A stretch of DNA of 62,308 bases, from assembly GCA_947372925.1 (NCBI GenBank), contig CANBVQ010000006.1:1-62308 (forward strand). The letters run 5' to 3'. This DNA comes from Acidimicrobiaceae bacterium (GTDB taxonomy: Bacteria; Actinomycetota; Acidimicrobiia; Acidimicrobiales; RAAP-2). The notes beneath the pieces are model-generated. The model was not told the origin of the DNA. It did no database searches and worked only from the letters and a program-made list of their open reading frames with translations. Position numbers and translations under genes: made by a program. Below are positions 23,081 to 26,268 of this stretch, in pieces (within the stretch, counting starts at the first letter, position 1; every line of letters starts with the position of its first letter).

Positions 23081-26000
23081 TTCGTCGCTTTGGCCACCCA
23101 GGCCAGTGCGCCGGTGCGTTCGTCATCGAAGGAAAGTGCTTCCCCGGCTCCCACACCGGGCGTCGCGTGAATCTCAGTCGCCAGCACCTCACTGGCGACG
23201 AGCGCAAACCCTTCGGCCAGATCATCCACACCGACTAGGTGCAGCGTGATGCGATCGGAGACGTCGAGGCCCGTCGTTTTCCGGAGGTCTTGAACCTGGC
23301 GAACCAGGTCTCGCAGGTAGCCCCGGCGGAGCAGTTCATCGTTCAAGGTGAGGTCCAGTGCGACAACTTCGCCACCCTCTCTACCTACGGCAAAACCACC
23401 TTGGCTCTTTACCCGCAGTTCAATGTCATCAGTGCCGAGCACGAAGTCACCTGTGGAGAGCGTTAAGGAAACGGTTTCGCCCCGTTCGAACGCGGCAGCC
23501 ACGGCAGCCCCATCGAGTTGACTCAGCGCCGGACGCAGTTCTTTGGCCGCCTCGCCCAGTCGGGGGCCGAGGGTTCGGAAATTCGGTACGAGTTCGAAAC
23601 TCAAGACGTCGGCCAGTTCCGTGCCGTACTCAATGGCGTCCACGTTGAGCTCTTCCTCAACAACACCAGCCGGCGGCTGAGGGCTACCCGGTGGCAGGAA
23701 TACCAGCGCGCGAGCGAGCGGCTGACGCACCTTGACGCCGGCGTCGGCCCGAGCGGCCCGACCCATTGAGGTCAGGCTGCGGGCGACAACCATGGCTGCT
23801 TCGAGGTCGTCATCGATGTCGGCCTCGAGAGTGCTCGGCCAGTCGGCCAAGTGGACCGAGTTCGTCGCATCGAGTCCGAATAGTTCGCGATACATCGAAT
23901 CGGCCACGAAGGGGCAGAACGGTGCCAGGAGCAGGGAAATTCGCTGCAAAACCTCGAGTAATGTCGCCTGCGCCGCTAAGGAATCCGCTCGAGGGGCATT
24001 CGGGTCGGTGCGCCAAAAACGGCGGCGACTGCGGCGGACATACCAGTTCGACAAGTCGTCAACGAGGCCCGAAACGGCCGACGCTGCCGGCAACGGCTCG
24101 TAGCCATCGAGTGACTCGGTAACAATCTTGGTGGTCCGCTCGAGGCGCGACAGAATCCAACGGTCCATGTCGGGACGGTCCGCTCGCGCGGGGATCCCGG
24201 CATCGTTGGGATTGAATCCGTTGAGCGATGCGTACGTCGTGAAGAAGCTGTAGGTATTCCACAGCGTGCCGAGTGTTTCGCGCATTGAAGAGTCAATAGC
24301 GCCCATCGACGCACGAGTTGGTGTCCACGGGGAACCTTGCGAGAACATCCACCAACGGAGTGGGTCGGCACCACGGGAATTCAACACTTCCCACGGATCA
24401 ATCACATTGCCGAGCGATTTGCTCATCTTGCGGCCATCAACATCGACAATGTGACCCAGACAGAGCACGTGCTCGTACGGCTTGGCACCAAAGACGAGAG
24501 AGTTCACCGCCAAGAGTGAGTAGAACCACCCTCGGGTCTGGTCAATCGCTTCGGCAATGAACTGCGCCGGGAAGTTAAAGAGGGCCTCGGAACCGGGGAC
24601 GTGGGGATAGCCCACCTGGGCGGCCGGCATGGCACCGGAGTCGAACCAGGCATCGATGACTGGCTCTACGCGCCTTGCCTCGACACCACAGGTCGGGCAG
24701 GCAAAGGTCACGGCATCGATTGAGGGACGGTGGGGGTCGAGCTCGGAGAGATCACGCTTTGTGAGTTCACCCAATTCCTTGAGCGAGCCAATACACGTGA
24801 GGTGTCCCTCGCCGCAACGCCAAATCGGCAGTGGCGTTCCCCAGAAACGGTCGCGAGAAAGAGCCCAGTCGACGTTGTTGGCCAGCCACTCACCGAATCG
24901 TCCTTCACGAATGTGCTCCGGGTGCCAGTCAATGGTCTTGTTTTCATTGACCATGAGCTCTTTGAACTTGGAGGTCGCGATGTACCAACTGGGCTTGCCC
25001 CAGTAGATAAGGACAGTCGAGCAACGCCAGCAGTGTGGCAGAGAGTGCTCGTAGTTAAAGCGGCGGATCAAAATACCGCGGCGCTCAAGCTCATTATTGA
25101 TTTCGGCGTTGGCGTCGCGAACACCAATGCCGGCCAGCCACGGCACTTGCGAGGTGAACGCACCATCGGGACCCACGGGGTTGACGGTGGGTAGACCGTT
25201 CGCGCGCGCGACCTGACGGTCGACTTCACCGAAAGCCGGCGAGAGGTGGACGAGTCCGGTGCCATCTTCGGTCGTCACGTAGTCAGCGGGAACGACGCGG
25301 CAGGCATCGGCACCTTCAGGGAGCTCCACGTCATCGAAAGGACGGCGGTAGTGCAGGCCTACGAGTTGGCTGCCGCTGAATGTGGCATCCGCTTTGACTC
25401 CCTCGCCACAGACGGCCTCCACAAGTGCTTCGGCCATCACGAGGCCGTTCACGACGGCGTACGTCACTTCGGGATTTACGGCGACACCGACGTTGCTCAG
25501 CAGCGTCCACGGTGTCGTCGTCCAGACCGCTAGGTGCGTAGCACCGGGGAGGTCGTGGGCGTCAGTGATCTCGAGCTGGACGTAGCAGCTCTCATCAAAT
25601 TCATCGGTGTAGACACCGGGCTGTCCGAGCTCGTGACTTGACAGGGCGGTGCCGCAACGCGGGCAGTAAGGAACGACCTTGAGGTCTTCGTAGAGCAGTT
25701 CTTTGTTGAAGAGTTGCTGCAACTGCCACCAAACAGATTCGACATAACTGGTGTGATAGGTCCAGTACGCAGATTCCAGGTCGACCCAGTAGCCAATGCG
25801 CTCCGTGAGCTTTTCAAACTCTCCGACATACGTATGGACACTCTCTCGACAGAGGCGCGTGAACTCGGCGATGCCAACTTCTTCTTCGATGGCCTTTTTG
25901 CCAGAGATTCCGAGGCGCTTTTCGACTTCGACCTCTACCGGCAACCCGTGGGTATCCCAGCCGGCACGACGCTGGACAAAGTGGCCCTGCATGGTTTGGT

Positions 26001-26211
26001 AGCGGCAGAAAAAGTCCTTATAGATACGGGCCCAAACGTGGTGCAGCCCGGGCTTGCCGTTGGCCGTCGGGGGACCTTCGTAAAAGACCCACGGGGTGGC
26101 CCCTTCGCGCTGCTGCATCGAGCGGGCAAATACGTCGTGCTCACGCCAACGGACCAGCTCGGCTTCTTCGAGCGCGACGAAATCGATCTCAGCACTAATT
26201 GGACGGAACAC
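23077..26211 (-). CDS. ileS: Isoleucyl-tRNA synthetase, type 2-like, with GXHH variant of the HIGH motif
   Basis: 1044 aa from GTG 26211, which has AAAGGGGA upstream; the frame opens earlier, at 26391, but the extra 60 residues look noncoding. It charges tRNA-Ile. The context EGPPTANGKPGLHHVWAR places GLHH (55-58) where class I synthetases have HxGH. KMSKS (DGRKMSKSLGN), the CP1 editing domain with GWDTHGLPVEVEVEK and a zinc-type CPRCG are normal. The overall pattern resembles the Thermus/eukaryote-like IleRS2 class, which tolerates mupirocin. It is the only IleRS gene in the window, so it may be the housekeeping enzyme. Confidence 0.96.
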   Translation of the reverse strand: MFRPISAEIDFVALEEAELVRWREHDVFARSMQQREGATPWVFYEGPPTANGKPGLHHVWARIYKDFFCRYQTMQGHFVQRRAGWDTHGLPVEVEVEKRLGISGKKAIEEEVGIAEFTRLCRESVHTYVGEFEKLTERIGYWVDLESAYWTYHTSYVESVWWQLQQLFNKELLYEDLKVVPYCPRCGTALSSHELGQPGVYTDEFDESCYVQLEITDAHDLPGATHLAVWTTTPWTLLSNVGVAVNPEVTYAVVNGLVMAEALVEAVCGEGVKADATFSGSQLVGLHYRRPFDDVELPEGADACRVVPADYVTTEDGTGLVHLSPAFGEVDRQVARANGLPTVNPVGPDGAFTSQVPWLAGIGVRDANAEINNELERRGILIRRFNYEHSLPHCWRCSTVLIYWGKPSWYIATSKFKELMVNENKTIDWHPEHIREGRFGEWLANNVDWALSRDRFWGTPLPIWRCGEGHLTCIGSLKELGELTKRDLSELDPHRPSIDAVTFACPTCGVEARRVEPVIDAWFDSGAMPAAQVGYPHVPGSEALFNFPAQFIAEAIDQTRGWFYSLLAVNSLVFGAKPYEHVLCLGHIVDVDGRKMSKSLGNVIDPWEVLNSRGADPLRWWMFSQGSPWTPTRASMGAIDSSMRETLGTLWNTYSFFTTYASLNGFNPNDAGIPARADRPDMDRWILSRLERTTKIVTESLDGYEPLPAASAVSGLVDDLSNWYVRRSRRRFWRTDPNAPRADSLAAQATLLEVLQRISLLLAPFCPFVADSMYRELFGLDATNSVHLADWPSTLEADIDDDLEAAMVVARSLTSMGRAARADAGVKVRQPLARALVFLPPGSPQPPAGVVEEELNVDAIEYGTELADVLSFELVPNFRTLGPRLGEAAKELRPALSQLDGAAVAAAFERGETVSLTLSTGDFVLGTDDIELRVKSQGGFAVGREGGEVVALDLTLNDELLRRGYLRDLVRQVQDLRKTTGLDVSDRITLHLVGVDDLAEGFALVASEVLATEIHATPGVGAGEALSFDDERTGALAWVAKATN

Positions 26212-26268
26212 AAATCCCCTTTGTCTGTTCCTATCGTAGAAGACGACGACACTCTGGCCGTCTCCTCC

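Follow-up and report, generated by a model that had tools for sequence, protein, structure and literature searches.

Among the type 2 isoleucyl-tRNA synthetases (IleRS2), Brkic et al. 2023 described a group that carries G/AXHH at the first class I signature and combines mupirocin hyper-resistance with retained activity (PMC10485003). The group accounted for 86 of the 379 sequences in that study. In Deinococcus radiodurans the IleRS2 has ALHH, and its mupirocin Ki of 6.6 mM drops 823-fold when the motif is changed to HVGH. Replacement of HVGH by GVHH in the enzymes of Thermus thermophilus and Priestia megaterium raises the Ki roughly 200- to 400-fold at a moderate catalytic cost; the same swap abolishes the activity of IleRS1. 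Tolerance of the exchange in IleRS2 has been ascribed to a displaced helix tip, and resistance to a clash of the third histidine with mupirocin (PMC10485003). The IleRS of Streptomyces griseus lacks tRNA-dependent pre-transfer editing (PMC4861432).

The window, i.e. the whole 62,308-nucleotide stretch of DNA that was analysed, carries on its reverse strand an ileS gene with such a motif. A sequence-only reading had pointed to the exchange and to its link with very high mupirocin resistance in some IleRS2; that link is the published one (PMC10485003). The GXHH variant is thus not new. Its principle dates from 2023, and the window's gene is a further member of the group, with a conservation across its lineage that goes beyond the earlier note. 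The features of the gene are as follows.

About 26211-23077, reverse strand: ileS, type 2 isoleucyl-tRNA synthetase, 1044 amino acids from the probable GTG start (TIGR00392, Pfam and homology)
26215-26222, reverse strand: probable ribosome-binding site AAAGGGGA, directly upstream of the GTG start, as judged from the sequence
26038-26049, reverse strand: GLHH at the first class I signature, where residues one and three of HXGH have changed places (read from the sequence; aligns without gaps to 1ile, 8c8u and 8c8w)
24415-24429, reverse strand: KMSKS, the second class I signature, canonical; residues 655-659 of the open reading frame, aligned with relatives

The mechanically defined reading frame (26391-23077, reverse strand) contains WVFYEGPPTANGKPGLHHVWARIYKDF and counts 1104 amino acids from an upstream GTG. 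The true start is probably the GTG at 26211-26209, since it is preceded by the probable ribosome-binding site listed above and since homology to other IleRS begins near it. Indeed, the HMMER alignment with the T. thermophilus enzyme opens at residue 2 counted from this GTG, and most relatives' alignments start only at residues 41-67 of the longer frame. A divergent acetyltransferase frame lies about 70 bases from the same GTG. A T-box or other RNA leader was considered for ileS and dropped, given this short gap and an Rfam search of the whole window that returned no match of any kind.

The protein matches NCBIfam TIGR00392 with 854 bits, where the ileS equivalog cut-off is 621, and displays the Pfam domains tRNA-synt_1, Anticodon_1 and, at the C-terminus, DUF5915. 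Its closest PDB entries are those of P. megaterium IleRS2, led by the GVHH mutant 8c8w (830 bits), which is the best full-length match. T. thermophilus IleRS follows with 812 bits. These scores are more than twice those of the IleRS1 structures of Staphylococcus aureus and P. megaterium (327-337 bits). In a maximum-likelihood tree from which the motif columns were left out, the protein falls inside IleRS2, divided from IleRS1 by a branch with support of 100. The window's enzyme is therefore an IleRS2, grouping away from IleRS1, as the sequence-only reading had proposed.

The codons GGG CTG CAC CAC at 26049-26038 specify Gly-Leu-His-His, residues 115-118 of the 26391-23077 frame, in the context WVFYEGPPTANGKP-GLHH-VWARIYKDF. 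HMMER alignments bear out the earlier placement of these residues at the HIGH position: GLHH falls without gaps on the HVGH of T. thermophilus IleRS (1ile, YEGPPTANGLP-HVGH-AQAR), on the HVGH of wild-type P. megaterium IleRS2 (8c8u) and on the GVHH of the engineered P. megaterium mutant (8c8w). What defines the G/AXHH group is a glycine or alanine as the first signature residue together with a histidine as the third, and the window's enzyme has both. By every sequence feature that was checked, it belongs to this group. A sequencing or assembly error, or chance, is excluded as the source of GLHH because two separate codons must change relative to HXGH and because the swap recurs in every one of 80 related loci that were sequenced independently.

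Those 80 loci, the best related ones, come from named genome records, almost all of which bear the label Acidimicrobiaceae, Acidimicrobiales or actinobacteria; 78 read GLHH and 2 GVHH. One of the GLHH loci (L085) has NN in place of NG upstream. Another relative from the Acidimicrobiaceae (L061) combines GVHH with KASKS instead of KMSKS. A GXHH match was found in every sampled genome of the window's genus (15/15) and family (21/21). Of the 296 genomes sampled across the phylum, at least 143 match a strict DNA pattern for GXHH, and 47 match a strict pattern for HXGH in an IleRS2-like context; in the remainder the sequence around the motif, e.g. that of IleRS1, fits neither pattern. Nothing matched in the reversed control of the GXHH search. 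This census is the added value of the present analysis: among phylum genomes that match either pattern, the swap (143) outnumbers the canonical IleRS2-like motif (47) about threefold. The family is thus fixed for GXHH among its sampled members, and the motif is common in the phylum.

At the level of the class, 35 genomes (within the 296) comprise 13 with GXHH, 16 with HXGH and 6 with neither pattern. The HXGH genes of the class mostly read GPPFANGLPHYGH and occur in other families. Those sampled form a separate, well-supported IleRS2 clade (SH-aLRT 95; core 99), so that the contrast between GXHH and HXGH within the class is one of gene lineage and not of recent point changes. In the maximum-likelihood tree, which is small, the GXHH enzymes lie on one side of a branch whose support is only 49, so that those of the phylum may have had one origin or several. 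A broader proposal is that the housekeeping ileS of this one class consists of two deep IleRS2 lineages, GXHH and HXGH, split along families, with this genome's family fixed for GXHH; we consider it as likely as not. Should mupirocin resistance and editing set the two lineages apart in the way they do their homologues, these would offer a natural comparison of the costs and benefits of the swap in closely related, free-living bacteria.

A different departure from the signature is found in type 1 enzymes of the phylum. The IleRS1 of L089, L093, L098, L106 and related loci (G191, G020, G213, G132 and others) are about 930-950 amino acids long and read HVGT, HAGT or HLGT, i.e. the fourth histidine of the signature, present in the HIGH of Escherichia coli, is a threonine. 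In another actinobacterial order, 11 of 12 genomes match the HXGT pattern, and in the four genomes checked (G191, G058, G035, G213) the HXGT gene alone passes the ileS cut-off. Full-text literature searches for an HXGT signature in type 1 IleRS found no paper. This side observation may deserve more attention.

The assembly to which the window belongs (1.49 Mb, 96.2% complete, 101 contigs) was searched for a second ileS, and none was found above the cut-off; the window's gene is its only such match. The lesser, below-cut-off matches include an 863-amino acid ValRS-like protein with HIGH, a LeuRS-like open frame of 541 amino acids and weaker ones; the names ValRS-like and LeuRS-like are our reading of the sequences. 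Within the 96% completeness of the assembly, this is the sole chromosomal ileS of the genome, and the whole sampled family carries the same enzyme. The protein also stays below the cut-offs of the MupA and MupB models, and the extra mobile copy beside a housekeeping ileS that typifies these two is absent. The sequence-only reading had taken the gene for an ordinary chromosomal ileS and not an acquired second copy, and this view holds.

The opposite view, in which this is a second ileS gained for antibiotic resistance on top of a canonical housekeeping copy, draws on the tie between GXHH and hyper-resistance (PMC10485003) and on actinobacterial genomes that do contain both motif types. Three genomes of one genus (G154, G231 and G281; loci L146, L147, L149-L152) each have two full ileS genes over the cut-off, one GXHH and one HXGH. 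Nevertheless, it is very improbable for the window's gene, in view of the single match above the cut-off in this genome, the retention of the gene throughout the genus and the family, whose sampled members showed no canonical motif alongside it, and its ordinary neighbours (GNAT acetyltransferase, HAD hydrolase, glutathione peroxidase and YceI).

As a separate observation, GIHH is found in Bacteroidota IleRS2 on records classed as plasmids, from Phocaeicola massiliensis (L139) and Prevotella nigrescens (L140).

The enzyme is almost certainly the housekeeping IleRS2 of an Acidimicrobiaceae-like actinobacterium and one of a natural GXHH sub-group that combines normal charging with hyper-resistance, inherited with the family's ileS. 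Its tRNA-charging activity is presumed from homologues, sole-copy status and conservation; hyper-resistance is predicted from published homologues, and what concerns editing behaviour we likewise infer. In catalysis, the histidine at position 3 of the motif would stand in for the first histidine, which is missing. This replacement should be feasible because the helix tip bearing the motif is displaced in IleRS2, as shown for the P. megaterium enzyme (PMC10485003). The same histidine would clash with mupirocin, so that normal charging of tRNA-Ile is expected, together with a Ki for the drug that lies between high micromolar and millimolar values. This trait would be passed on with the family's ileS and not as an acquired resistance gene.

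It could be argued, from the inactivation of IleRS1 by the same swap (PMC10485003), that GLHH marks a paralogue with altered or lost synthetase function that does not charge tRNA. This is hardly credible, since the enzyme is an IleRS2, where the swap is tolerated, and the sole ileS, with its KMSKS, editing and anticodon-binding regions intact. Nor is there any real likelihood that the swap is recent in this lineage and adapts it to mupirocin producers of its own habitat: mupirocin pressure is held to have selected the motif in general (PMC10485003), but its fixation in all sampled family members and its spread in the phylum already contradict a recent event, and nothing in the tree calls for a late change close to the window's protein.

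What is confirmed, then, is the swap of a nearly invariant catalytic motif in the only IleRS of a whole bacterial family, from which intrinsic mupirocin hyper-resistance is predicted for a group of mostly uncultured actinobacteria.

Compared with known systems, the window's enzyme most resembles the G/AXHH IleRS2 of Streptomyces griseus and D. radiodurans, likewise type 2 with the first and third signature residues exchanged; it differs from them only in its lineage, that of an Acidimicrobiaceae-like actinobacterium, and is known here by sequence. The GVHH of the P. megaterium mutant 8c8w corresponds to GLHH position by position, but it was engineered from a canonical HVGH enzyme whereas the window's motif is natural. 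MupA of Staphylococcus is IleRS2-like, stands in a context of mupirocin resistance and is 38% identical to the window's protein along 95% of the length. However, MupA is an acquired second copy on plasmids, unlike the sole chromosomal gene described here, which scores 756 bits against the MupA cut-off of 1900. Finally, the GPPFANGLPHYGH enzymes of other families belong to the same class and enzyme type but retain the canonical HXGH and form their own well-supported clade, whereas the window's IleRS2 carries GXHH.
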